From NCBI RefSeq assembly GCF_025699485.1, contig NZ_JANUXN010000008.1, positions 1 through 64,000 on the forward strand: a DNA stretch of 64,000 nt, written 5' to 3'. The first letter of the stretch is position 1, and each line of letters opens with the position of its first letter. Origin of the DNA: Thauera carbonicopians. Its GTDB lineage: Bacteria; Pseudomonadota; Gammaproteobacteria; Burkholderiales; Rhodocyclaceae. The notes below the pieces were generated by a model that had not been told where the DNA came from, did not search any database, and saw only the letters and a program-made list of their open reading frames with translations. A program made the position numbers and the translations under genes. Below are positions 48,009 to 62,452 of the stretch, one piece after another.

Positions 48009-49112
48009 TTATAGGCCCTGGCGCCGTTCGCCTGCCTTTGCGGTCAGATGTTCGCCGCGCCACAGGCCGAGCGCCGACAGGTAGGCCAGCGCGGCAAAGG
48101 GCCACAGGCTGTCGACCCATTCGGTCAGGCCATGGAAGTTCAGCACGTTGCTCAACTGGGCGAGCTGCCGGTTGTAGGCCAGATAGGGATTGTCGGGCAT
48201 CAGGTTGACCAGGGCGGTGGCGCCCAGCAGCGCGGTGCCGGCCAGCGCGTGCTGGGCGAGGCGGGGCAGCAGCAAGGCGGCGGCCAGCAGCGCGCTGCCG
48301 ATCGCCAGCCCCCGCTCGGCGCCCGGCGTCAGCCAGGCCAGCGGTGCGCTGGGTTCGAAGAAGGTGGCGGTGGCCACGCTCTTGGCGGCGATGCCCAGCG
48401 CCAGCAGCAGCACGATCGGCAGCGGGTTGCGCGCGCGCATCATGCAGCGGGCGAAGAGGCCGACGGCCAGGATCGAGGCCGCGGTCAGCGCGGTGTCGAA
48501 GGCGATGAAGCGTTCGGGGCTGAACGGCAGCGGCGCGGCGATGCCGAGCAACTGGCGCAGATTGCCGCTGGAAAACAGCAGGTCGGTGGCGCTGAGCTGG
48601 CTCAGCAGCCACAGCGCGAGCAGGACCAGGCCGGCTTCGCCGGTGCGGCCGCCGATGATCCAGGCCGTGCGCCAGCGATGGATGATGCCGCGGGGGCCGA
48701 ACCAGTCCTGCCCCCAGCGTATCCCCAGCATCGCGCCGAGCAGACCGCCCAGGATGTTGGCGCCGATGTCGAGGTTGCTGGCGATGCGGCTCGGCAGCAG
48801 GTTCTGCAGGGTTTCCAGGCCCAGGCTCAGCAGTGCCGCCAGCACGGTGATCCGTGCGACGCCGCGCCAGGCCGGTCTGCCCGCCGGCAGCGCGGCGGCG
48901 GCGAGGAAGCCGAAGGGCAGGTAGCCGAGGATGTTGAACAGGAAGTCTTCGAGGATGAAATAGCGCGGCCATGGCGCCCACAGATAGTCGAACAGCGGCA
49001 GTCCGCTGTCGCGCCAGCCCGCCAGCGGATACAGGCAGGCGTAGGCCATCAGCGCCGCATAGGCGATGGCGAGGTTGCGCGGCAGCGAGGAGGGGGGCGT
49101 GTTCCGGTTCAT
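48009..49112 (-). CDS. VanZ-family membrane protein
   Basis: A 367-residue protein with about ten hydrophobic helices. The N-terminal half carries the VanZ-like core (YFILEDFLFNILGYLPFGFLAAA and ASNLDIGANILGGLLGAMLG); the C-terminal half is a further group of helices ending in a short cytoplasmic tail. VanZ confers low-level teicoplanin resistance in enterococci, but most VanZ-like proteins have no known role. The ATG at 49112 is consistent with the first helix. Confidence 0.82.
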   Translation of the reverse strand: MNRNTPPSSLPRNLAIAYAALMAYACLYPLAGWRDSGLPLFDYLWAPWPRYFILEDFLFNILGYLPFGFLAAAALPAGRPAWRGVARITVLAALLSLGLETLQNLLPSRIASNLDIGANILGGLLGAMLGIRWGQDWFGPRGIIHRWRTAWIIGGRTGEAGLVLLALWLLSQLSATDLLFSSGNLRQLLGIAAPLPFSPERFIAFDTALTAASILAVGLFARCMMRARNPLPIVLLLALGIAAKSVATATFFEPSAPLAWLTPGAERGLAIGSALLAAALLLPRLAQHALAGTALLGATALVNLMPDNPYLAYNRQLAQLSNVLNFHGLTEWVDSLWPFAALAYLSALGLWRGEHLTAKAGERRQGL

Positions 49113-49200
49113 GGCGTGGGGGGACGGAGTGCCCTGCACCTGCGGGTTCCGATGTCCGATCCCCCGGGATTCTGCCAGTTCCCCCGGGGTCTGTGGCTCA

Positions 49201-49217
49201 TGCACCGCCGTGGTGCG
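49201..49217. promoter_or_regulatory. NtrC-like box upstream of the first Anbu-system operon
   Basis: TGCACCGCCGTGGTGCG matches TGCACCA-N3-TGGTGCA at 12 of 14 defined positions, with perfect GCACC-N5-GGTGC half-sites. Its centre lies about 107 bp upstream of the start expected from the sigma-54-like element at 49289-49305, the usual enhancer distance. NtrC binding is inference. Confidence 0.6.
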
Positions 49218-49288
49218 CGATGTGCATTCCGGGTGCGTGAAAGAGGATGGCTGCCGATGAATCGTGCGGGCGTGGCCATGGTTTGCGG

Positions 49289-49305
49289 ATGCGCACGGTT
49301 CTTGC
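49289..49305 (+). promoter_or_regulatory. Sigma-54-like -24/-12 element, first Anbu-system operon
   Basis: TGCGCACGGTTCTTGCT fits the sigma-54 pattern YTGGCACG-N4-TTGCW except for two positions in the -24 part (CG in place of GG at 49292-49293). The -12 half TTGCT is perfect and spacing is right. The predicted start near 49317 is about 30 bases before the GTG start codon. The imperfect -24 keeps confidence modest. Confidence 0.45.
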
Positions 49306-49347
49306 TGTGGAGCAGGCTGTCGCTCAACCGTGTCCTGCGAGGCTCTC

Positions 49348-52300
49348 GTGTCCATCCACGTCAAGCTGAATCACATCACCCATTACCGTTACGACCGCCC
49401 GGTGGCGCTGTCGCCGCAGGTCGTCCGCCTGCGCCCGGCGCCCCACAGCCGCACGCCGATCCATGCCTATTCGCTGAAAGTGGAGCCGGCGGAGCATTTC
49501 ATCAACTGGCAGCAGGATCCCCAGTCGAATTACCTGGCGCGGCTGGTGTTCCCGGAAAAGACCACCGAGTTCCGCGTCGAAGTCGATCTGGTCGCCGAGA
49601 TGTCGGTGATCAATCCCTTCGACTTCTTTCTCGAGCCGAGCGCCAAGGAAATCCCCTTCGATTACGACGACGGCCAACTCGTCGAATTGGCGCCCTATCT
49701 GGTCAAGGCCCCTGCCGGGGTGCTGGGGCCGAAGTTCGAGGCTTACCTGGCCTCGATTCCGCGCGAGCCGCAGGCCAGCGTCGATTTCCTCGTCGCGCTC
49801 AACCAGCGCCTGCAGCAGGACATCCGCTACCTGGTGCGGATGGAACCCGGCGTGCAGACGCCGGAAGAAACGCTGAGCCTGGCGAGCGGCTCCTGCCGCG
49901 ACTCGGCCTGGCTGCTGGTGCAGCTGCTGCGCCACCTGGGGCTGGCAGCGCGTTTCGTGTCGGGCTACCTGATCCAGCTGACGCCCGACGTGAAGTCGCT
50001 CGATGGCCCCTCGGGCACCGAAGTGGACTTCACCGACCTGCACGCCTGGTGCGAGGTCTATCTGCCCGGCGCCGGCTGGGTCGGGCTGGATCCGACTTCC
50101 GGCCTGTTCGCCGGCGAAGGCCACATTCCGCTCGCCTGCTCGCCCGAACCGTCCTCGGCGGCGCCGATCACCGGGTTCTCCGACGAGTGCGAATGCGAGT
50201 TCGAGCACCACATGAAGGTCGAGCGGGTGTGGGAGGCGCCGCGCGTCACCAAGCCCTATACCGAAGAGCAGTGGGAAGCGATCGAAGCCCTCGGCCACCG
50301 CATCGACGGCGACCTGGATGCCAGCGACGTGCGCCTGACCCAGGGCGGCGAGCCGACTTTCGTGTCCCTGGACGATCGCGACGGCGCGGCCTGGAACGGC
50401 GATGCGCTCGACCCCTTCAACCGCGACACCAGCAAACCGAGCAAGCGCACGCTGGCCGAGAACCTGATGTTCCGGCTCAAGGACCACTATGCGCCGCAGG
50501 GTCTGCTGCATTTCGGCCAGGGCAAGTGGTATCCGGGCGAGCAACTGCCGCGCTGGTCGCTGAACTGCTACTGGCGCAAGGACGGCGAGCCGCTGTGGCG
50601 CGACCCGGACCTGTTTGCGCGCGAACTCTCCGGCACCCGGGTGGATGAGAAGACTGCAGGCGATTTCCTCGCCCGCGTCGCCGAACGCCTCGGGGTTGCC
50701 GGCAAGTGGATGATGCCGGCCTTCGAGGATGCCTGGTACTACCTGTGGCGCGAGCGCAAGCTGCCGACCAACGTCGATCCGCACGATTCGCGCGTCGACG
50801 ACCCGCTGGAGCGCGCCCGCCTGGCCAAGATCTTCGAGCAGGGCCTGAAGGAGGTCATCGGCTACGTGCTGCCGATCGTGCGCAGCCACACCGGTCCGCA
50901 GCGCTGGCAGAGCGGGCCGTGGTTCCTGCGCGCCGAGCGCCTGTACCTGATCCCGGGCGATTCGCCGATCGGCTACCGCCTGCCGCTGGATTCCCAGCCC
51001 TGGGCCGGCAAGGGCGACTACCCGTGGATCCATCAGATCGACCCCAACCAGGCTTTTCCGGTGTTGCCGGCCCATGCGGCCTTGCGCCATCAACTGCAGC
51101 CGACGGGCGTGACGATCGGTGCCGACAGCGGCCTCGGTTTCGAGGCGCATGCCGGCGGCTGGACGCCGGGGCGTATCGAGCATGCCGGCCAGCACGACGT
51201 CGATGGCGAGGCGGCGATGCCGCTGCCGGGCGCCGACACCGCGGCGCTGGCCAGCCGCGACGAGCGCTACGACCCGGCCCGCCCGCCCGGCCCCTACGAA
51301 TCCGCCGGCTGGATCACCCGCAGCGCGATCTGCGCCGAGCCGCGCGGCGGCCTGCTGTACATCTTCATGCCGCCCACCGCGGCGCTGGAAGACTACCTCG
51401 AAGTCGTCGCCGCGATCGAAGCCACGGCCGAGGAGTTCGCCCTGCCGGTCGTGCTCGAAGGCTACGAGCCGCCGTCCGACCCGCGCCTGTCGCACTTCCG
51501 CATCACCCCCGACCCGGGCGTGATCGAGGTCAACATCCATCCGGCGGGCAACTGGGACGAACTCGTCGAGCGCACCACCACGCTGTACGAGGAAGCCCAC
51601 CAGTCGCGCCTGTCGACCGAGAAGTTCATGCTCGACGGCCGCCACACCGGCACCGGCGGCGGCAACCACTTCGTGCTCGGCGGCGCCACGCCGGTGGATT
51701 CGCCTTTCCTGCGCCGGCCCGACCTGCTGCGCAGCCTGGTCAGCTACTGGCACAACCATCCCAGCCTGTCCTACCTGTTCTCGGGTCTCTTCATCGGCCC
51801 GACCTCGCAGGCGCCGCGTGTCGACGAGGCCCGCCACGATTCGGTGCACGAACTGGAAGTCGCCTTCCAGCAGTTCCCCGACCCCGGCGTCCAGGTGCCG
51901 CCCTGGCTGATCGACCGCCTGCTGCGCAACCTGCTGATCGACGCCACCGGCAATACCCACCGCGCCGAGTTCTGCATCGACAAGCTCTACAGCCCCGACG
52001 GCCCCACCGGCCGGCTCGGCCTGCTGGAACTGCGCGCCTTCGAGATGCCGCCGCATGCGCGCATGAGCCTAGCCCAGCAACTGCTGCTGCGCGCGCTGAT
52101 CGCCCGCTTCTGGCAGCAGCCCTACGCGCCGGATCGGCTGCGGCGCTGGGGCACCGAGCTGCACGACCGCTTCCTGCTGCCGCACTGGGTGGCGGAGGAC
52201 TTCCGCGACGTCATCGACGAGTTGCGCGAATTCGGCTATCCGATGGAATTCGACTGGTTCGCGCCGCATTTCGAGTTCCGCTTCCCGAAGTACGGCGAGT

Positions 52301-52824
52301 TCGCCGCGCGCGGGGTGCAGGTCGAACTGCGCATGGCGCTCGAACCCTGGAACGTGATGGGCGAGGAAGGCTCGGTCGGCGGTACGGTGCGCTACGTCGA
52401 TTCCTCGGTCGAGCGGCTGCAGGTCAAGGTCAGCGGCCTCAACGACGATCGCCATGTGCTGAGCTGCAACGGCCGTGCGATACCGCTGCAGCCCACCGGC
52501 ATCGTCGGCGAGTTCGTCGCCGGTGTGCGCTACCGTGCCTGGCAGCCGCCGTCCTGCCTGCACCCGACCATCGGCGTGCATGCACCGCTGACCTTCGACC
52601 TGGTCGACGGCTGGATGCAGCGTTCGATGGGCGGCTGCGTGTATCACGTCGCCCACCCGGGCGGCCGCAATCACGAGACCTATCCGGTCAATCCTTATGA
52701 GGCCGAAGGCCGCCGGCTGGTGCGTTTCACCACCACCGGCCACACGCCGGGCCGCATCGAGCCTGCGCCGGCGACACGCAACGCCGACTTCCCCTTCACC
52801 CTCGACCTGCGCCGCCAGGGCTGA
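49348..52824 (+). CDS. Transglutaminase-like protease fused to DUF2126 (Anbu-system component)
   Basis: A 1158-residue protein. About 1-290 is a bacterial transglutaminase-like domain with N-terminal beta region (KLNHITHYRYDRPVALSPQVVRLRP) and a complete Cys-His-Asp triad: Cys183 in SGSCRDSAW, His232 in DLHAWCEVY, Asp248 in GLDPTSG. About 340-1158 is the DUF2126/COG4196 region (GGEPTFVSLDD, FGQGKWYPGEQLPRW, HTGTGGGNHFVLGG), a domain related to circularly permuted amidoligases of glutamine-synthetase/ATP-grasp neighbourhoods. It likely cleaves or cross-links peptides. The GTG at 49348 gives the family start VSIHVKLNH with GAGG upstream. The next gene starts seven bases after its stop. Confidence 0.88.
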   Translation: MSIHVKLNHITHYRYDRPVALSPQVVRLRPAPHSRTPIHAYSLKVEPAEHFINWQQDPQSNYLARLVFPEKTTEFRVEVDLVAEMSVINPFDFFLEPSAKEIPFDYDDGQLVELAPYLVKAPAGVLGPKFEAYLASIPREPQASVDFLVALNQRLQQDIRYLVRMEPGVQTPEETLSLASGSCRDSAWLLVQLLRHLGLAARFVSGYLIQLTPDVKSLDGPSGTEVDFTDLHAWCEVYLPGAGWVGLDPTSGLFAGEGHIPLACSPEPSSAAPITGFSDECECEFEHHMKVERVWEAPRVTKPYTEEQWEAIEALGHRIDGDLDASDVRLTQGGEPTFVSLDDRDGAAWNGDALDPFNRDTSKPSKRTLAENLMFRLKDHYAPQGLLHFGQGKWYPGEQLPRWSLNCYWRKDGEPLWRDPDLFARELSGTRVDEKTAGDFLARVAERLGVAGKWMMPAFEDAWYYLWRERKLPTNVDPHDSRVDDPLERARLAKIFEQGLKEVIGYVLPIVRSHTGPQRWQSGPWFLRAERLYLIPGDSPIGYRLPLDSQPWAGKGDYPWIHQIDPNQAFPVLPAHAALRHQLQPTGVTIGADSGLGFEAHAGGWTPGRIEHAGQHDVDGEAAMPLPGADTAALASRDERYDPARPPGPYESAGWITRSAICAEPRGGLLYIFMPPTAALEDYLEVVAAIEATAEEFALPVVLEGYEPPSDPRLSHFRITPDPGVIEVNIHPAGNWDELVERTTTLYEEAHQSRLSTEKFMLDGRHTGTGGGNHFVLGGATPVDSPFLRRPDLLRSLVSYWHNHPSLSYLFSGLFIGPTSQAPRVDEARHDSVHELEVAFQQFPDPGVQVPPWLIDRLLRNLLIDATGNTHRAEFCIDKLYSPDGPTGRLGLLELRAFEMPPHARMSLAQQLLLRALIARFWQQPYAPDRLRRWGTELHDRFLLPHWVAEDFRDVIDELREFGYPMEFDWFAPHFEFRFPKYGEFAARGVQVELRMALEPWNVMGEEGSVGGTVRYVDSSVERLQVKVSGLNDDRHVLSCNGRAIPLQPTGIVGEFVAGVRYRAWQPPSCLHPTIGVHAPLTFDLVDGWMQRSMGGCVYHVAHPGGRNHETYPVNPYEAEGRRLVRFTTTGHTPGRIEPAPATRNADFPFTLDLRRQG

Positions 52825-52831
52825 GGACGCC

Positions 52832-55549
52832 ATGCAGCTTCAGCCGCAGAGCCCGCCCGAACTGCTCGCGCACTACGCCGCGCGGCCGGACCGCTACGAC
52901 GAACTGTGCCAGCGCATCGGCAGCGTGGTGGTGGTGCGGCCGCACTGGCGCGACTTCTTCCACCAGCTGGCGGCGATGCCGCCGGCCGAGACCGAGGCGC
53001 GGCGGGCGGCGCTGCGCCGGCTGGTGCACGAGAACGGCATCACCTACAACGTCTATGCCGACCCGCGCGGCTTCGAGCGGCCGTGGGACCTCGACCTGCT
53101 GCCCTACATCCTGCCGGCGGCGGAATGGGCGCAGATCGAGGCCGCGGTGATCCAGCGCGCGACGCTGTTCAACCTGATCCTCGCCGACCTCTACGGCGAG
53201 CAGAACCTGCTGCAGCAGGGGCTGATCCCGCCGGCGCTGATCTATGGCCACAGTGGCTTCCTGCGGCCGCTGGTGGGCGTCAAGCAGCCGCGCGACCTGT
53301 TCCTGCACCTCTATGCGGTGGATCTCGCGCGCTCGCCCGACGGCCGCTGGTGGGTGGTGGCCGATCGCACCCAGGCGCCGTCCGGCGCCGGTTATGCGCT
53401 GGAGAATCGCGGCGTGGTGGCACGGGCGCTGCCGGAACTCTATCGCGCCGCCGGCGCGCAGCCGCTGGCGCCTTTCTTCGAGGATTTCCGCGACAGCCTC
53501 GCCGCGCTGGCACCCCTGGGATCGGCAGCGGGCGAGGCACCGCTGATCGTGGTGCTGACGCCCGGGCCGTACAACGAAACCTACTTCGAGCACGCCTTCC
53601 TCGCCCGCGAGATGGGGTTCCCGCTGGTCGAAGGCCAGGACCTGACGGTGCGCGACGAACAGGTCTTCCTGCGCACGCTGGATGGCCTGCGCCGGGTGCA
53701 TGTGATCCTGCGCCGGGTGGACGACATCTGGTGCGACCCGCTCGAACTGCGCGACGATTCGGCGCTCGGCGTGGCCGGGCTGGTGGCGGCGGTGCGTGCC
53801 GGCGGCGTGACGGTGGCGAACGCGCTCGGCAGCGGCATTCTCGAAACCGGCGCGCTGCTCGGTTATCTGCCGCGGCTGGCCGAGCACCTGCTCGGGCAGA
53901 AACTGAAGATGCCGTCGGTGGCGACCTGGTGGTGCGGCGAGGCCGCGGCCTGTGCCCATGCGCTGTCGCGACTGGGCGAACTGGTGGTCAAGCCGGCCTA
54001 TCCGGCGATGCGCGGCGGGCCGGTGTTCTGCCGCGACCTGCCGCCGGCGGAACTGGCGGCGCTGGCCGCTCGCATCGCCGAGCGGCCTTTCGACTTCGTC
54101 GCGCAGGAAATGGTGAATATCTCGCAGGCGCCGGTGCTGGCCGACGAGCGGGAGGAGGCCGGCGAGGCCGCCGGCGGGCTGGTGGCGCGCAACATCGGCC
54201 TGCGGGTGTTCGTCGCCGCCTCGCCCGACGGCTTCCGCGTGATGCCGGGCGGCCTGGTGCGCGTCGCCCCCGAAACCGACATGCGCGTGGTGTCGATGCA
54301 GCACGGCGGCGGCAGCAAGGATGCCTGGGTGCTGGGTGGCGCGGTATCGACGGTGCGCCGGCCGGTGTCCGCGGTGCCCGGCCAGCTCGCGCCGCGCGAG
54401 CTCGACATGCCGCTGCCCGGGCTGGCGAGCCGGGTCGCCGAGAACTTCTTCTGGCTCGGCCGCTACAGCGAGCGTGCCGACGGTTCGGCACGCCTGGGGC
54501 GTGAAACCCTGAGGCGGCTCGGTGGCCTGGTGGAGTTCGATCGCCCCGTGGCGAAGGCACGCAACGATGATGCCGGGCCATGGGCGACGCCGACGCTGGC
54601 GGCGCTGGCCAGCCTGTGCGAGCGCTGCGGCCTGCGGCTGTCCGCCGGCGAAGAGGCCGCTGAGGAAAGGGCCGTCCAGGACAGGAGTGCCCGGGGAGAG
54701 GCAGCGGCGCAGGACGGCGCTGCGCCGGCACGGCCTGTGCCGCCACCCGAGGATGGCCCCCTTGCTGCGGAGTGCGGCATCGAGCGGCTGGCGGGTGCGT
54801 TGTTCGACGAAAGCCAGAGCGGCAGCGTGGTGACCAGCCTGCGTGGCGTGCTGCGCCTGGCGGCCCAGCTGCGCGACCGGCTGTCGCCGGACAGCTGGCG
54901 CATCTACAATCGCCTGGCCGAATTCGCCACGCCTGCGCCAAGCACGCCAGGCCTGGGCGACGCGATGCATCGCCTGGACGAGTCGCTGCTGTCGCTGGTG
55001 ACGCTGTCGGGCTTCGTCATCGAGAGCATGCCGCGCGATGCCGGCTGGCGCTTCCTGTCCATCGGCCGCCGCATCGAGCGCCTGCAGTTCCTGACTTCGG
55101 CGCTGGCCGCGCTGCTGACGGTGCCGGAGCAGGGTGCGCTGGAAGCGCTGCTGGCCGTCACCGACGGCGAGATCCGTTACCGCAGCCGCAACACGCGCGG
55201 ACTCGCGCCGCGGCCGGTCGCCGAGCTGGTGATGTTCGACCCCGACAATCCGCGCGCGCTGCGCTACCAGATCGAGTCGCTGATCGAGCATGTCGGCCGC
55301 CTGCCGGGCGGCCGCTCGCTCGGCGAGCCCTTGCAGGCGCTGCTGGCCGAGCTGGATGCCGAACGCGACTGCGACTGCTTCGAAAGGCTGGCGCTCGATC
55401 CGCGCAAGCCAGCCGCGGCCGAGGCGCGGCAAACTGTCGCTTCGCTGCTGCGGCGCATCTGGGGCGCCGGCAATGCACTGGCCGACGGCATTTCCCACCG
55501 CTACTTCACCCATCTGGACGCGCGCAGTCATGCAACCGCCTCGCGCTGA
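52832..55549 (+). CDS. Circularly permuted ATP-grasp ligase fused to an alpha-E domain
   Basis: A 905-residue fusion. About 1-520 is a circularly permuted ATP-grasp (DUF404/DUF407) domain with NGITYNVYADPRG, TPGPYNETYFEHAFLAREMG, VEGQDLTVRDEQVFLRT, LVVKPAYPAMRGGPVF and GGLVRVAPE. About 525-900 is an alpha-E helical domain starting LASRVAENFFWLGRYSERAD. The linker near 600-660 carries an Ala/Glu/Pro-rich low-complexity insert. The ATP-grasp part is predicted to form peptide-like bonds; alpha-E domains accompany it. It duplicates, in fused form, what the two genes at 56664 and 58183 encode separately. It is tightly packed behind the DUF2126 gene. Confidence 0.88.
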   Translation: MQLQPQSPPELLAHYAARPDRYDELCQRIGSVVVVRPHWRDFFHQLAAMPPAETEARRAALRRLVHENGITYNVYADPRGFERPWDLDLLPYILPAAEWAQIEAAVIQRATLFNLILADLYGEQNLLQQGLIPPALIYGHSGFLRPLVGVKQPRDLFLHLYAVDLARSPDGRWWVVADRTQAPSGAGYALENRGVVARALPELYRAAGAQPLAPFFEDFRDSLAALAPLGSAAGEAPLIVVLTPGPYNETYFEHAFLAREMGFPLVEGQDLTVRDEQVFLRTLDGLRRVHVILRRVDDIWCDPLELRDDSALGVAGLVAAVRAGGVTVANALGSGILETGALLGYLPRLAEHLLGQKLKMPSVATWWCGEAAACAHALSRLGELVVKPAYPAMRGGPVFCRDLPPAELAALAARIAERPFDFVAQEMVNISQAPVLADEREEAGEAAGGLVARNIGLRVFVAASPDGFRVMPGGLVRVAPETDMRVVSMQHGGGSKDAWVLGGAVSTVRRPVSAVPGQLAPRELDMPLPGLASRVAENFFWLGRYSERADGSARLGRETLRRLGGLVEFDRPVAKARNDDAGPWATPTLAALASLCERCGLRLSAGEEAAEERAVQDRSARGEAAAQDGAAPARPVPPPEDGPLAAECGIERLAGALFDESQSGSVVTSLRGVLRLAAQLRDRLSPDSWRIYNRLAEFATPAPSTPGLGDAMHRLDESLLSLVTLSGFVIESMPRDAGWRFLSIGRRIERLQFLTSALAALLTVPEQGALEALLAVTDGEIRYRSRNTRGLAPRPVAELVMFDPDNPRALRYQIESLIEHVGRLPGGRSLGEPLQALLAELDAERDCDCFERLALDPRKPAAAEARQTVASLLRRIWGAGNALADGISHRYFTHLDARSHATASR

Positions 55550-55583
55550 AGATCCATGCGTGCCGGCGGCGGACGAAGCGTCG

Positions 55584-56534
55584 ATGCACTGCTACGAGAT
55601 CACCCACGACACCACCTACCGCTACGCCAGCCCGGTGCTGCTGTCGCAGCAGATCGCCCACCTGAGCCCGCGTGCGATGCCTCGCCAGCGCCTGTTCGCG
55701 CATCGCCTGACGATTTCGCCCGAGCCGTCCACGCGCAGCGAGCGCCCGGACTTCTTCGGCAACCCGACGACGCGCTTCGGCCTGTATGCGCCGCACGAAC
55801 GGCTGAGCGTGCGGGCGGTGAGCCGGGTCGGCGTGCAGCGGCAGGACTGGCCCGAGCCGGCGCAGAGCCTGCCGTGGGAAGCCGCGCGCGACCATCTGCG
55901 CGATGCGCTGTCGGGCCATGCGCCCTTGCAGGTCGATGCGCGCGATGCCGGCCAGTACCGCTTCGCCTCGCCCTTCGTGCAGCTCGGCGAGGAAACCGCG
56001 ACCTATGCCGCCTATGCCGCGCGCTGCTTCACCCCCGGCCGGCCGCTGCTGGAAGCGGCGCAGGCGCTGTCCTCGCTGATCCATGCCGAATTCCGCTTCG
56101 ACCCGGCGGCCACCAGCGTCGCCACGCCGGTGGCCGAGGTTTTCGCCGAACGCCACGGCGTGTGCCAGGACTTTTCCCATCTGATGATCGCCTGCCTGCG
56201 CTCACTCGGGCTGGCGGCGCGCTACCTGTCGGGCTACCTGCTCACCGAGCCGCCGCCGGGGCAGCCGCGGCTGATCGGCGCCGACGCCTCGCATGCCTGG
56301 GTCGCGGTGTGGTGCCCGGGCATCGGCTGGGTGGAGTTCGACCCCACCAACGCCGTGCAGCCGGCTCAGGGCCACATCACGCTGGCCTGGGGGCGCGATT
56401 ATGGCGACGTCTGCCCGCTGCGCGGCGTGATCCTGGGCGGCGCCAGCCACGCCGCGGACGTCGCGGTGACGGTGATGCCGGTAGCGGTGCCGCCAGCGGC
56501 GCCGGGCTGCGGCGAATCCGATGCACCAGCATGA
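55584..56534 (+). CDS. Second transglutaminase-like protease of the Anbu system
   Basis: A 316-residue transglutaminase-like protein. It starts MHCYEITHDTTYRYASPVLLSQQIAHLSPR and has the Cys194 (HGVCQDFSHLM), His237 (ASHAWVAVW) and Asp253 (EFDPTNAV) triad. It lacks the DUF2126 extension of the protein encoded at 49348. The ATG at 55584 is chosen because the family starts at this beta-strand; ATG 55530 would add 18 residues and overlap the previous gene. Predicted to cleave or transfer peptides in concert with the ATP-grasp ligases. Confidence 0.86.
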   Translation: MHCYEITHDTTYRYASPVLLSQQIAHLSPRAMPRQRLFAHRLTISPEPSTRSERPDFFGNPTTRFGLYAPHERLSVRAVSRVGVQRQDWPEPAQSLPWEAARDHLRDALSGHAPLQVDARDAGQYRFASPFVQLGEETATYAAYAARCFTPGRPLLEAAQALSSLIHAEFRFDPAATSVATPVAEVFAERHGVCQDFSHLMIACLRSLGLAARYLSGYLLTEPPPGQPRLIGADASHAWVAVWCPGIGWVEFDPTNAVQPAQGHITLAWGRDYGDVCPLRGVILGGASHAADVAVTVMPVAVPPAAPGCGESDAPA

Positions 56535-56538
56535 TGCA
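56522..56538. promoter_or_regulatory. NtrC-like box 1, second Anbu-system operon
   Basis: TGCACCAGCATGATGCA matches TGCACCA-N3-TGGTGCA at 13 of 14 positions. It overlaps the 3' end of the transglutaminase gene and is centred about 117 bp upstream of the predicted sigma-54 start. Confidence 0.65.
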
Positions 56539-56556
56539 TCGCATGCCAGGCTGGTG

Positions 56557-56573
56557 CGCACCAGCGAGGTGCA
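56557..56573. promoter_or_regulatory. NtrC-like box 2, second Anbu-system operon
   Basis: CGCACCAGCGAGGTGCA matches the consensus at 12 of 14 positions with perfect GCACC-N5-GGTGC cores. It is centred 35 bp after box 1. Between and overlapping them lies another dyad CTGGTGCGCACCAG. Tandem boxes at this distance are typical of NtrC enhancers. Confidence 0.65.
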
Positions 56574-56619
56574 CGCCGGGCAATTGCGCCGCGGCGCGGT
56601 ATTTCGCGCCCGCCAGCGG

Positions 56620-56636
56620 CTTGGCACGCTTTCTGC
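56620..56636 (+). promoter_or_regulatory. Sigma-54 -24/-12 promoter, second Anbu-system operon
   Basis: CTTGGCACGCTTTCTGC with GG at 56623-56624 and GC at 56635-56636 (10 bases between) is a near-consensus sigma-54 element (YTGGCACG-N4-TTGCW, one mismatch in the -12 part). A start near 56647 leaves a short leader containing AAGGGAG before ATG 56664. Confidence 0.7.
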
Positions 56637-56663
56637 TGTGGTAGCGCGCAAGGGAGTCCGACA

Positions 56664-58112
56664 ATGATCGCAGACATCAAAATGACCGCAGCGAAACCCT
56701 ATGACGAAATGTATGCCGCCGATGGTTCGGTGCGCGCCCATTACCGCAGCTACGCCGACTGGCTCGAACGGATGCCGCGCGAACGCATCGAGCGCAAGCG
56801 CGGCGAGGCCGACGTCGCCTTCCACCGCGTCGGCATCACCTTCAATGTCTATGGCGCCGACGGCGGCAAGGAGCGGCTGATCCCGTTCGATCTGCTGCCG
56901 CGCATCATCCCCGGCGATGAATGGACGGCGCTCGAAGCCGGTCTGCGCCAGCGCGTGAGGGCGCTCAACGCCTTCCTGACCGACGTCTATCACGACCAGG
57001 AAATCCTGCGCGCCGGCCGCATGCCGTCCGACCTGGTGCTGAACAATGCCCAGTTCCGCACCGAGATGAAGGGTGTGGACGTGCCCGGCGGGCTGTACGC
57101 GATGATTGCCGGCATCGACCTGGTGCGCGCCGCGGGCGCCGACGGCAAGGGCGAGTACTACGTGCTGGAGGACAACCTGCGCGTGCCCTCGGGCGTCAGC
57201 TACCTGATCGAGAACCGCAAGATGATGATGCGGCTGTTCCCCGACCTGTTCTCGCGCTACCGCGTGCAGCCGGTGGAACACTACCCCGACCTGCTGCTGG
57301 AGACGCTGCGCGCGGTCGCGCCCGAGGGCGTGCTCGACCCCACTGCGGTGCTGCTGACGCCGGGCGCCTACAACAGCGCCTACTTCGAGCACAGCTTCCT
57401 GGCCCAGCAGATGGGGATCGAACTGGTCGAAGGCCAGGACCTGTTCGTCAAGGACGACACGGTCTACATGCGCACCACCCAGGGGCCGCGCCGGGTGGAC
57501 GTGATCTACCGCCGCATCGACGACGACTTCCTCGATCCGCAGGTGTTCCGCGCCGATTCCATGCTCGGCGTGCCCGGCCTGATGTCGGCCTACCGCGCCG
57601 GCCGGGTGACGCTGGCCAACGCGGTCGGCACCGGCGTCGCCGACGACAAGTCGATCTACCCCTACGTGCCGGAGATGGTGCGCTTCTACCTGGGCGAGGA
57701 ACCCATCCTCAACAACGTGCCCACCTACATGCTGCGCAACGAGGAGGACCTCGCCTATACGCTCGCGCACCTGCCCGAGCTGGTGGTGAAGGAAGTCCAC
57801 GGCGCCGGCGGCTACGGCATGCTGGTCGGGCCGGCGGCGACCAAGGCCGAGATCGAGCATTTCCGCCAGCTCATCGTCGCCGCGCCGGAGAAATACATCG
57901 CCCAGCCGACGCTGTCCTTGTCGACCTGTCCGACTTTCGTCGAAGCCGGCATCGCGCCGCGCCACATCGACCTGCGCCCCTTCGTACTGTCGGGCGGCAA
58001 GGAGATCCGCATGGTGCCCGGCGGCCTGACGCGGGTGGCGATGCAGGCCGGTTCGCTGGTGGTGAATTCCTCGCAGGGCGGCGGCACCAAGGATACCTGG
58101 GTGGTCGGCTGA
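56664..58112 (+). CDS. Circularly permuted ATP-grasp ligase of the Anbu system
   Basis: A 482-residue stand-alone circularly permuted ATP-grasp (DUF404/DUF407) protein: [91 protein letters not shown] and GGLTRVAM. It is paralogous to the N-terminal domain of the fusion at 52832. Predicted role: ATP-dependent amide-bond formation on an unknown peptide or protein. It is first gene of the downstream operon, with AAGGGAG before the ATG and a sigma-54 element immediately upstream. Confidence 0.9.
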
Positions 58113-58182
58113 GGCCGCTCACCTGCCTTCAGCCGCCTGTCCCCGTCCGTACCCCATATCCGATGAAGCTGGGAGAACGATC

Positions 58183-59130
58183 ATGCTGAGCCGTACCGCC
58201 GATCACCTCTACTGGATGGCGCGTTATACCGAACGTGCGGAAAACACCGTGCGCATGCTCGACGTTTCTTACCGGATGTCGCTGCTGCCGCGCAACAACG
58301 GCAGCAGCGACGACGGCTGGGGCGCGATCCTCGCCATCAGCGAACTGACCGACGCCTACGCCCGCAGCGGACGGCCGCTGACGGCGCGTGACGTCATCGA
58401 GTTCGTCGTGCTCGACCGCGACAACCTGTCGAGCGTGTGGAACTGCCTGCGTGCGGCGCGCGAGAATGCGCACGCGGTGCGCGGCACGCTGACCGCGGAA
58501 ATGTGGGAAACCACCAACGCCACCTGGCTCGAAATCCGCGACATGACGCCGGAAAAGCTGCAGGTGACCGATCTCGGCGAGTTCTTCGAGTGGGTGAAAT
58601 TCCGCTCCCATCTGCTGCGCGGCGTCACCTTCGGCACCATGCTGCACGACGACGCCTTCCAGTTCGTGCGCCTGGGCACCTTCCTCGAACGTGCCGACAA
58701 CACCGCGCGCCTGCTCGACGTGAAGTACCACAACCTGCTGCCGCAGACCGAGAGTCCGACCGGCACCACCGACTACTACCAGTGGGGCGCGCTGCTGCGC
58801 TCGGTGTCGGCCTTCGAGACCTACCGCCACGTCTACCGCGATGTCATCACGCCCTACAAGGTCGCCGAACTGCTGATCCTCAACCACGCCATGCCGCGCT
58901 CGCTGCATGCCTGCGTCGACGAGGTCAACGACATCCTCGGCGAGATCGCCAACCTGCACTCGGCCGAAGCCGCGCGCCAGGCCGGCGAACTCCATGCCAC
59001 GCTGCACTACGGCCGCATGGACGACATCTTCGACACCGGCCTGCACCCCTGGCTCGAGCGCTTCCTCGAGCGCATCAACCGGCTGGGGGATCGCATCGGC
59101 GACAACTTTCTCGTTCCGGTCGCCGCCTGA
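58183..59130 (+). CDS. Alpha-E domain protein of the Anbu system
   Basis: A 315-residue all-helical alpha-E protein: MLSRTADHLYWMARYTERAENTVRMLDV at the start, FLERADNTARLLDVKY, and an Asp/Arg-rich helical core. The family always accompanies the permuted ATP-grasp ligases and is thought to be a scaffold or accessory; biochemical role unproven. It parallels the C-terminal part of the fusion at 52832. GGGAGAA precedes the ATG; it follows the ATP-grasp gene by 70 bp. Confidence 0.9.
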   Translation: MLSRTADHLYWMARYTERAENTVRMLDVSYRMSLLPRNNGSSDDGWGAILAISELTDAYARSGRPLTARDVIEFVVLDRDNLSSVWNCLRAARENAHAVRGTLTAEMWETTNATWLEIRDMTPEKLQVTDLGEFFEWVKFRSHLLRGVTFGTMLHDDAFQFVRLGTFLERADNTARLLDVKYHNLLPQTESPTGTTDYYQWGALLRSVSAFETYRHVYRDVITPYKVAELLILNHAMPRSLHACVDEVNDILGEIANLHSAEAARQAGELHATLHYGRMDDIFDTGLHPWLERFLERINRLGDRIGDNFLVPVAA

Positions 59131-59203
59131 ACGCTTCCTGGCGCCGCCCTCGGTTTGCTCGTGGACCGGCGGCGCCGAACAATGACCCGACAGGACTGCC
59201 CGC

Positions 59204-60016
59204 ATGACTTATTGCGTTGCGATGTGCCTCGACGAGGGACTCGTCTGTCTGTCCGATTCCCGCACCAACGCGGGCGTCGACCATATCAACACCTTCCGCA
59301 AGATGACCGTCTTCGAGCGTGCCGGCGACCGGGTGCTGGTGTTGATGAGCGCCGGCAACCTCGCCATCACCCAGGCGGTCATCAACATCCTGCGCGAACA
59401 TGCCGCGGTACAGGACCGCCAGAGCCTGTGGAGCGCGCCGACCATGTTCGAATGCGCGCGCCTGGTCGGCGACACCATCCGTCGCGTGCATCAGCGCGAT
59501 GCCGAAGCCTTGCAGCAGTTCGGCGTCGAATTCAACGCCTCCTTCATCCTCTGCGGCCAGATCGCCGACGAGCCGCCGCGGCTGTTCAGCATCTACGCCG
59601 CCGGCAACTTCATCGAGGCCTCCAGCGACACGCCCTACTTCCAGATCGGCGAATCCAAGTACGGCAAGCCGATCGTCGACCGCGTGGTCAATTGCCGCAC
59701 CTCGCTCGACGAAGCCGCCAAGTGCGCGCTGATCTCGATGGATTCGACGATCCGCTCGAACCTGTCCGTCGGCCTGCCGCTGGACCTGCTGATCTACAAG
59801 CGCGACAGCCTGAAGGTGACGCGCCACGTCAGCATCGATGCCGACAATCCCTATTTCGACATGATCCACAACCAGTGGGGCGCCAACCTGCGCCGGGTGT
59901 TCGCCGAACTGCCCGATCCCGACTGGGCGACCTGGCCGCAGGAAGCCGTGCCGCGCCCGCGCGTGCGGGACATGGGCGAGACGGCGGTATGCGAAGCCGC
60001 CGGCAAGAAGGGGTGA
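59204..60016 (+). CDS. Anbu bacterial proteasome homologue (proteasome-type protease)
   Basis: A 270-residue N-terminal-nucleophile hydrolase of the Anbu (bacterial proteasome homologue) family. After Met removal Thr1 would be the nucleophile (MTYCVAMCLDEGLVCLSDSRTN); counting from Thr1, Asp17 and Lys32 occupy the positions of the proteasomal Asp17 and Lys33. Family features include LVLMSAGNLAITQAVIN and ISMDSTIRSNLSVGLPLDLLIY. Structures of relatives form open helical rings with weak or undetected peptidase activity and unknown substrates. It closes the operon and is followed by a strong terminator. Its genomic company is the defining context of the family. Confidence 0.95.
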   Translation: MTYCVAMCLDEGLVCLSDSRTNAGVDHINTFRKMTVFERAGDRVLVLMSAGNLAITQAVINILREHAAVQDRQSLWSAPTMFECARLVGDTIRRVHQRDAEALQQFGVEFNASFILCGQIADEPPRLFSIYAAGNFIEASSDTPYFQIGESKYGKPIVDRVVNCRTSLDEAAKCALISMDSTIRSNLSVGLPLDLLIYKRDSLKVTRHVSIDADNPYFDMIHNQWGANLRRVFAELPDPDWATWPQEAVPRPRVRDMGETAVCEAAGKKG

Positions 60017-60044: not shown

Positions 60045-60074
60045 AAAAGGGCTGCGTGTGATCGCAGCCCTTTT
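60045..60074. terminator. Bidirectional terminator between anbu and the chemoreceptor gene
   Basis: AAAAGGGCTGCG (60045-60056) pairs perfectly with CGCAGCCCTTTT (60063-60074) around a 6-base loop. A-run on one side and T-run on the other let it stop anbu transcripts and the convergent chemoreceptor gene. Confidence 0.9.
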
Positions 60075-60162: not shown

Positions 60163-62103
60163 CTACGACTTGAAACGCCCCACCAGCCCGTTCAACTCAT
60201 CCGATAGCTGCGACAGCCGCCCGGAATCCTCCTGTGCAGAGCTGGCCAGGCGCTCGACCAGCTGCGCTTCGTCGTAGATCTGCTGGATATGCTGGTTGAT
60301 CTCTTCGGCCACCCGGTGCTGCTCCTCCGCTGCGGCCGATATCTGCAGGTTCTGGTCCCGGATTTCATCGACCGACAGCTGGATGCCTTCGAAGCTCTCC
60401 CGCGCATTCTCGATCGACGACACGCTGGCACGCGACAGATCCAGGCAGCTTTCCATTTTCTGCGAGACCTCGTTGGTCTTGCTGCCGAAGGTGTTGAGCA
60501 ACTGGACGATTTCGCCGGTGGAGTCGGAGGTGCGCTTGGCCAGAACCCTCACTTCATCCGCAACCACGGCAAATCCACGCCCCTGCTCGCCTGCCCTGGC
60601 GGCCTCGATCGCCGCATTCAGCGCCAGCAGGTTGGTTTGTTCGGCGATGGCGCGGATGGTGTCCAGAATCTGGTTGATGTTGCGGCTGCCTTCCTCCAGC
60701 TCCACCATGGCCCGGGACGACTCGGCCAGGCGGCTGCCCAGGCGGTTGACGTTCTCGGTGCTCAACTCGATCTGCTGCTTGCCCTCGGCGACACGACGAT
60801 GTCCGTTCTCGGCGGAGTCGGCGGCATTGCTGCACGAACGGGCCACTTCGTTGGCGGTGGCGACCATCTCCTTGAACGCGGTGGACACCAGTTCCGCCGC
60901 TTCGCGCTGGCGCCCGGCCGCCTGGTGCATGTTGCCGGCAACGTCGCTGTTGACCCGCGAGGCGTCCTGCAGCCTGGTCGATGCCGCGCCGATGCGCTGG
61001 ATCAACTGGCGTATCGCGGCGAGAAACTTGTTGAACCAGCCCGCCAGTTCCGCGGTTTCGTCCTTGCCCTGGACCTCGAGATCGCGGCGCAGATCGCCAT
61101 CGCCCTGGGAAATCGACTGCAGCCCGGCGCTGACCTGGCCGATGGGCTTGACGATCACTCTGGAGAACACCGCTGCGATCAGGGCAAAGACGATCGCCAG
61201 CACCACCACGATGGCCGCCGTCAGGTAGCTCATGCGGGTGGCCTCGCCCATGACTTCGCCGTGCTCGATCAGGCCCACGTAACGCCAGCCGAGGTCGGGC
61301 GAGGACCAGATATTGGCCATGTAGCGCACGCCGTCGATTTCCACCTCGGTGAAACCCTGCGTGGTGGCGGCCAGTTGGGCGTAGGGTGCGCCCAGCTCCT
61401 TGAGCTGCTTGAAATTGTGCCCGGCATCCCGGGGGTCGACCAGCACGATGCCGTCCTCGATCAGCATCACGTAGCCGCTTTTACCCAGCTTGATGCTCTT
61501 GACCAGCTCGGTGAGGTTCTTCAGCGAAACGCTCACGACGAACACGCCCTTGGCCTTGCCTGCGCCATCGAGCATCGCCCTGGCCGTGCCGACCAGCGCC
61601 ATGTCGTCCTTGTCGTAATAGTAGGCGGGCGTGCGCACCGTCTTGCCCGGGCTGGCCATGGCGGCCTTGTACCAGGGGCGCGAGCGCGGATCGTAGTTCG
61701 CCAGCTGCGGGTCGTCCGGCCATTTGGCGTAGCTGCCGTCTTCCAGGCCGATGGAAAGGATCGCGGCCGAGGGGTGGGTGGTGCCATAGCGTGCGAACTG
61801 ATCGATCACCTGCCGGGCCGCCGCCGGCATGGGCTGGCTGGCGGCATCGGCGGAGCGGTAGTCCTTCAGGCTGTCGACCCATGTATATGCGGGATCGGCC
61901 GCCATCTGATCGACGTTCTGCTGGGCGGCGTCGAAGAACTGGCGGATATTGCCGTCGATCTGGCGGATTTCGCGGGTGCTGCTGTCGATGAACTGGTCGA
62001 CCGCCTGGCTGCGGGTGTTCAACACCGAGATCACGGCAACCAGGCTGACCGGGATAAAGGCGACCAGGACGAAAGCAAGGACGAGCTTGGTCTGTATTTT
62101 CAT
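60163..62103 (-). CDS. Methyl-accepting chemotaxis protein with dCache sensor
   Basis: A 646-residue chemoreceptor: transmembrane helix 1 (about 8-28), a periplasmic double-Cache domain (about 35-275; [13 protein letters not shown] motif and [18 protein letters not shown]), helix 2 (about 282-305), HAMP (about 306-360) and the cytoplasmic signalling domain with the hairpin tip [32 protein letters not shown] (quoted in part as [20 protein letters not shown]). dCache domains often bind amino acids or organic acids. No CheR-docking pentapeptide is at the C-terminus. The ATG at 62103 gives [17 protein letters not shown] sigma-28-like promoter lies upstream. Confidence 0.94.
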
Positions 62104-62182
62104 TGTGATAACCATCATGCATTGGGGTTGGGCGCAAACGGCTGCGGCACGGTGACATGTGCGGCGATCTGCTGCCGGCCCT

Positions 62183-62210
62183 GTATCGGCTCGATGGGGG
62201 CGAATCTTTA
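62183..62210 (-). promoter_or_regulatory. Sigma-28 (FliA)-like promoter of the chemoreceptor gene
   Basis: On the minus strand TAAAGATT (62210-62203) is followed 12 bases later by GCCGATAC (62190-62183). The sigma-28 consensus is TAAAGTTT-N11-GCCGATAA, so both boxes match well with one extra base of spacing. A start near 62175 gives a 70-base leader. FliA control fits chemotaxis genes. Confidence 0.6.
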
Positions 62211-62284
62211 GCGGGGATTCCGGCCATGACGGGAAACAAGGCGGCTTCGCGCCTGTTTTTTTGTCCGCCGGGCCGCCCCAAGGC

Positions 62285-62344
62285 AAAAAGCGCCCCCTGA
62301 GGGGCAGCGAGTCCGCGAAGCGGATGAGCGTGGGGGCATTTTTC
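62285..62344. repeat. Palindromic GC-rich element flanked by A- and T-runs
   Basis: The element starts AAAAAGCGCCCC and ends GTGGGGGCATTTTT, with an inner GAGGGGC and TCCGCGAAGCGGA dyad. It looks like the dispersed bidirectional hairpins common between genes in beta-proteobacteria. It separates the tRNA transcript from the chemoreceptor promoter. Confidence 0.5.
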
Positions 62345-62418
62345 GCCTGATGGCCCGCGCGTATCCGAAGCGCCGGGACTTGCTCCCGCGGGAGGGCGCC
62401 CCTGCCGGGCGCACAATG

Positions 62419-62452
62419 AAAAAGGGCCAGCACTTTTCAGCGCTGACCCTTC
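62419..62452 (-). terminator. Rho-independent terminator of tRNA-Asp
   Basis: Plus-strand AAGGGCCAGCAC (62422-62433) pairs with GCGCTGACCCTT (62440-62451) with two imperfect pairs. On the minus strand it ends in a T-run just past the tRNA. Confidence 0.8.

Follow-up and report, generated by a model that had tools for sequence, protein, structure and literature searches.

A possible nitrogen-starvation pathway for making and hydrolysing amide bonds, encoded by two operons at the Anbu locus of Thauera carbonicopians

Anbu is a proteasome relative with solved structures, but its substrate is not known. The locus described here raises the question of which chemistry the genes around anbu could perform and under which growth condition. 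The window, the whole stretch of DNA analyzed, comprises 64,000 nucleotides (64 kb) of Thauera carbonicopians (contig NZ_JANUXN010000008.1, positions 1 to 64,000) and contains at 49348-60016 six intact neighbouring genes, all on the + strand and separated by gaps of 7 to 129 bases. Their proteins match, over the curated Pfam cut-offs, Bact_transglu_N, Transglut_core, DUF2126, CP_ATPgrasp_2/1, Alpha-E and Proteasome. We distinguish operon A, encoding a transglutaminase (TG)-like domain fused to DUF2126 (TG1-DUF2126), an ATP-grasp/alpha-E fusion (GA) and TG2, from operon B, encoding a further ATP-grasp protein (GB), an alpha-E protein and Anbu (Table 1). A first-pass annotation, made by a model from the sequence, had rightly recognized a known and intact family cluster of undescribed substrate. 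Our favored reading, for which we see a little less than an even chance, is that both operons are under NtrC/sigma54 control and together provide a pathway by which amide bonds are made and hydrolysed during nitrogen starvation.

The window contains two exact NtrC-type boxes compared with 0.19 expected, a number reached in 2 of 100 shuffles. Genes 1 and 4 are each preceded by one of these boxes, with a sigma54-type site following it; sigma54-type sites alone are not beyond chance (three versus 2.79 expected). The promoter loci compared with them are related and not independent samples. Upstream of GB, a box within one mismatch was found in 18 of 18 Thauera loci. A sigma54 site that keeps GG and GC and has at most two mismatches is present in 18/18 Thauera loci and 51/72 others, against 0 and 3 in the reverse-complement controls. 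Sites with at most one mismatch are present in 16/18 and 19/72 (controls 0 and 0). Both elements together occur in 18/18 and 21/72 (controls 0 and 0), and the regions upstream of alpha-E and Anbu hardly differ from the controls. All 12 Thauera TG1 upstreams have a box within one mismatch, and 11 of the 12 a sigma54-like site (at most two mismatches) at -56 to -58 that lacks the -24 GG. Of the 44 exact boxes in the whole genome, 42 are outside the window; those among them with a sigma54 site (at most one mismatch, within 260 bases) point to glnA (two boxes, L079/L202), TIGR02001-glnK-amtB (L081/L221; GlnK and AmtB named from translation) and ureD (L083). Judged from its sites, operon B appears to belong to the NtrC/sigma54 regulon, with the box upstream of a -24/-12 promoter. 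A divergent membrane-protein-like open reading frame (ORF; 48009-49364, - strand, read from translation) shares the upstream region of gene 1, and the box at 49202 could therefore serve this ORF instead.

PP2685-2687 of Pseudomonas putida are presumably its Anbu operon. In published data, cited here and below from excerpts of the sources, these genes were up 11.1, 6.6 and 7.1-fold in nitrogen-limited versus carbon-limited (C-limited) conditions and 4.0, 4.6 and 2.6-fold in CN-limited versus C-limited conditions (PMC3325844). The Burkholderia cenocepacia genes I35_5080-83, which encode DUF404/407, DUF403, transglutaminase and large transglutaminase proteins and are NtrC/sigma54-dependent, as is predicted for the genes here, have listed values of -8.2, -9.4, -9.4 and -6.0 in an ntrC mutant (PMC5491218). 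DUF404/407 and DUF403 are given there as separate proteins, and the main text has no word starting with “proteasome”. Two Anbu structure papers also cite nitrogen-limited expression (PMC5666114, PMC6376114). Due to these expression data, nitrogen control of the family is already known in part. The choice of nitrogen starvation as test condition in the first-pass annotation was sensible. Our additions are the cis sites, the box that the second operon has for itself, and the reassignment of GA and DUF2126; searches of open-licence papers showed no earlier report of any of these. The nitrogen-type promoters before both operons indicate a growth condition in which the Anbu substrate could be sought.

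Which of the encoded proteins could form amide bonds? The first-pass annotation counted two intact permuted ATP-grasp ligases, which does not hold for the fused GA. The solved 3n6x, a putative glutathionylspermidine synthase with permuted ATP-grasp, matches GB across nearly its whole length (E 5.3e-223), whereas GA is a remoter relative that keeps few motifs (E 2.9e-90). GB of the window has the Pfam CP_ATPgrasp match together with E-x-N, the lysines and the glycine loop, and these motif residues are invariant among the GB compared. In the window, GA has A-x-R where GB has E-x-N, and its glycine loop is scrambled; E-x-N is found in 0/26 GA and in 0/14 further GA, and both E169 and K329 (GB numbering) are lacking in 26/26. 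GA is thus probably a degenerate ATP-grasp and not a ligase, as far as residue comparison can tell, and two ATP-grasp ligation steps are unsupported. Two ligation steps catalyzed by GB and DUF2126 are possible. Catalysis by GA through a different metal or nucleotide site would fit the conservation of its own R179 and Q181: all 26 GA have R at the position of N171 and Q or E at that of R173, all 26 keep R284, and 25 keep D152. Of the 14 further GA, 13 retain K476 and each has K or R at 376. We consider such activity doubtful, due to the loss of E169, K329 and the glycine loop, the incomplete retention of K376 (22/26) and K476 (18/26), and the replacement of R by H at the N171 position in two of the further GA (L204, L212).

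The second candidate ligase was overlooked in the first-pass annotation, which counted two TG-like enzymes. This is correct for gene 3, but gene 1 is not a plain TG, since about three quarters of its product are DUF2126 (1333.7 bits). The TG catalytic triads are present as claimed, Cys/His/Asp being invariant in 28/28 TG1 and 26/26 TG2 rows, window included. From the structural model, DUF2126 is predicted to adopt a glutamine synthetase (GS)-like fold. Compared with the GS superfamily (GS, GmaS), it showed no similarity in the sequence comparisons, is about twice as long and carries the attached TG domain. A second, shorter DUF2126 relative occurs in five genomes (G126, G131, G237, G246, G267), either next to the long one or separate from it, in frames of 713-718 amino acids that cover parts of profile positions 23-165 and 343-826.

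The arrangement had been interpreted as an ATP-grasp/alpha-E/TG module occurring twice, once fused and once split, each copy carrying out one ligation and passing tagged peptide on to the Anbu ring. The named domains do lie side by side, and in Thauera, where operon A is immediately upstream of operon B, the modules are head to tail. In the trees, TG1, TG2 and TG3, the TG of other Anbu loci, form three groups (69 rows after BLAST-based trimming; support 100/100, 97/96 and a weak 76/42), and GA and GB form two (SH-aLRT 100; 26 and 29 rows). “Duplicated” is therefore wrong or unsupported, and a recent duplication of the module is rejected by both trees; on this sequence evidence, operons A and B are distinct paralogous operons. 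Fused-GA-sized alpha-E frames occur in 15 of 185 genomes of the class, 13 with DUF2126, nine with Anbu and six without an Anbu match, which together with the missing E-x-N (26/26 and 14/14) also argues against two modules feeding one ring. The size class, alpha-E in at least 845 amino acids and below 250 bits, was our choice and omits G239 and G167, which have high-scoring alpha-E in long frames. Four class genomes with DUF2126 and such a frame lack an Anbu match (G108, G151, G174, G267). Altogether, we regard duplicated ligation modules as improbable.

Operon B shares the order GB, alpha-E, Anbu with the canonical Anbu operon (ATP-grasp, alpha-E, TG, Anbu). It differs in lacking TG3 and in being immediately preceded by another operon, which encodes a candidate ligase of predicted GS fold. 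Since the only Bact_transglu_N matches of the window's genome are TG1 and TG2, the genome has no TG3, and since TG2 belongs to operon A, operon B has no TG of its own; most simply, TG3 was lost. Among 80 named Anbu loci, the order GB, alpha-E, TG3, Anbu is found in 55, and a contig end interrupts it in one more; 13 loci lack TG3 but have alpha-E and Anbu, and in 11 Anbu stands alone. The order TG1-DUF2126, GA, TG2 is found in 20 of 20 DUF2126 stretches, drawn from 19 of the 26 DUF2126-positive among 43 searched named genomes. Outside Thauera, operon A lies downstream of operon B (L114, L116) or divergent from it (L049). In L050 and L166 operon A sits between alpha-E and Anbu, the usual place of TG3, and in L095 a lone TG1-DUF2126 gene does so. 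A replacement of TG3 by operon A is suggestive only: DUF2126 is present in 8/10 genomes without and 12/25 with TG3 (p 0.13), counted in the 35 of the 43 searched genomes with a readable alpha-E/Anbu locus. Eight Anbu-only loci, six of them with DUF2126, were left out of this table; besides L103 (searched as G016), 34 of the 80 loci are outside the DUF2126-searched list, including L102 and L104, which correspond to the genomes G010 and G019. The two exceptions without TG3 and DUF2126 (L144, L156) have one TG each on another contig. In both, which are Burkholderiaceae metagenome-assembled genomes, the locus is without TG, and GB and alpha-E are separated by an extra ORF.

The Anbu residues named in the first-pass annotation, Thr1, Asp17 and Lys32, are present and invariant in 11/11 aligned Anbu, and the protein is nearest to Anbu structures, all five matches among solved sequences being Anbu or Anbu-type peptidases (E 1.2e-100 to 3.1e-74). 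The same genome encodes a second proteasome-family protein, presumably HslV (G000 contig C3 85847-86362, L001). In G167 (contig C5 89496-96880), a DUF2126 gene is flanked on both sides by Anbu genes. The model of the alpha-E protein (gene 5) has a pLDDT of 89.3 and a pTM of 0.89, and fold searches with it gave no clear match.

Enzymes with a GS fold or a permuted ATP-grasp usually have small-molecule substrates, and no unfoldase is found by Pfam among the six proteins. Both points argue against protein turnover, in which Anbu would be a split-ring protease under nitrogen starvation and the other genes would tag or prepare proteins. Furthermore, three Anbu proteins had no peptidase activity on three proteasome substrates in the published assays (PMC6376114, excerpts). 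Turnover would agree with the nitrogen promoters of this locus, and also with the published ring architecture of Anbu, its binding of inhibitors and its expression under nitrogen limitation (PMC5666114); we judge it rather unlikely.

For the amide-bond pathway, we propose that nitrogen shortage would induce operons A and B via NtrC/sigma54. GB and DUF2126 would be the ligases, using ATP to link a carboxylate with an amine, with GA/alpha-E as a non-catalytic or altered partner. The TGs might cleave the amide as cysteine amidases or transfer it as transamidases. Gamma-glutamyltranspeptidase is an N-terminal nucleophile (Ntn) threonine amidohydrolase, and Anbu might likewise be an Ntn amidohydrolase for the ligated product, perhaps gamma-glutamyl or isopeptide, rather than a general protease. 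The benefit would be nitrogen recovered or safely held while ammonium is short. We further speculate, without expecting it to be likely, that Anbu is the hydrolase of a nitrogen-starvation amide cycle and not a protease, with DUF2126 and GB ligating, the TGs and Anbu cleaving, and GA/alpha-E as a pseudo-ATP-grasp scaffold coupling both ligases. With GB and DUF2126 as likely ligases and GA probably not, the chemistry narrows to a pair of enzyme assays and a single metabolomics comparison. The earlier observations are in this way partly confirmed (the six-gene cluster, the TG and Anbu residues, but not the plain TG, two intact ligases or duplicated module), and the earlier interpretation is partly supported.

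Several points weigh against the amide-bond pathway. For DUF2126, the model is middling (pLDDT 69.5), the best Foldseek E is 0.15 with the VIA rows picked from Foldseek's list, hhalign with the genome's own GlnA gives a probability of 0.1%, and a profile search of solved chains returned no GS. The role of E-x-N as metal ligand in ATP-grasp enzymes and glutathionylspermidine synthase is general knowledge, and glutathionylspermidine synthase was not matched in the sequence comparison. The lysines that many GA retain at 376 and 476 speak against GA as a non-ligase. Among the promoters, -24 GG is kept in none of the 11 Thauera TG1 sites, both elements occur in 5/31 TG1 upstreams outside Thauera (control 1, a modest excess) and do not co-occur in 51/72 non-Thauera GB loci, and at two mismatches four extra genomic boxes have a sigma54-like site nearby (L059, L062, L069, L085). 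Three Anbu-bearing genomes (G025, G039, G066) have no Bact_transglu_N match, so the TG is dispensable at times. Only ORFs of at least 100 amino acids were considered inside the cluster. Finally, Anbu binds proteasome inhibitors and was read as a protease by the authors of that work (PMC5666114).

The spread of the families bears on another explanation, peptide or natural-product synthesis (a proposal of Iyer 2009, known through citing papers), in which an amide-bonded small metabolite would be made and matured and nitrogen control would be incidental. Two candidate ligases together with amidase-like and Ntn enzymes would suit it. We consider it unlikely: with gaps of so few bases, there is no transporter or tailoring gene among the six, the nitrogen promoter is retained across many loci, and the families are widespread, DUF2126 occurring in 35 and Anbu in 48 of the 185 class genomes. 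Both occur in 30 (Fisher p 4e-17, uncorrected for kinship), DUF2126 is never found without alpha-E, and an Anbu match at E 1e-15 is missing in five DUF2126 genomes. In the genus sample of 25 genomes, including that of the window, 19 have Anbu, alpha-E and DUF2126, and five (G008, G009, G011, G012, G013; G011 is 68% complete) have none of them. In the fragmented G023, which has no Anbu match, operon A is present and GB is cut off after its first part by a contig end.

Table 1 Features of the Anbu locus, in window coordinates
Feature	Position	Strand	Basis or remark
NtrC-type box GCACC-N5-GGTGC, upstream of operon A	49202..49216	+	exact match
sigma54-like site GCGCACG-N4-TTGC, weak -24	49291..49305	+	2 mismatches to TGGCACG-N4-TTGC, -24 GG absent
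gene 1, operon A (TG1-DUF2126): TG-like domain fused to DUF2126	49348..52824	+	DUF2126 part 50182-52812, GS-fold candidate amidoligase
gene 2, operon A (GA): circularly permuted ATP-grasp fused to alpha-E	52832..55549	+	Pfam, 3n6x match, residue comparison; A-x-R replaces E-x-N
gene 3, operon A (TG2): stand-alone TG-like protein	55584..56534	+	Pfam; groups with operon-A TG2, support 97/96
second NtrC-like box, overlaps TG2 end	56523..56537	+	1 mismatch
NtrC-type box GCACC-N5-GGTGC, upstream of operon B	56558..56572	+	exact match
sigma54-type promoter TGGCACG-N4-CTGC	56622..56636	+	1 mismatch
gene 4, operon B (GB): permuted ATP-grasp, E169-x-N171, K329, K376, GGYG, K476	56664..58112	+	Pfam, 3n6x E 5.3e-223, invariance
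gene 5, operon B: alpha-E protein, predicted all-helical	58183..59130	+	Pfam; model
gene 6, operon B: Anbu, Thr1/Asp17/Lys32 after Met removal	59204..60016	+	structure-sequence matches, alignment
stem-loop 3' of anbu, possible transcript end	60046..60073	+	11-pair stem, stretch minimum energy -22.1 kcal/mol, z -3.65

The stem-loop behind anbu is absent from the output of the terminator scan. Facing the end of anbu, a methyl-accepting chemotaxis-like protein, read from translation, is encoded on the - strand at 60163-62433.
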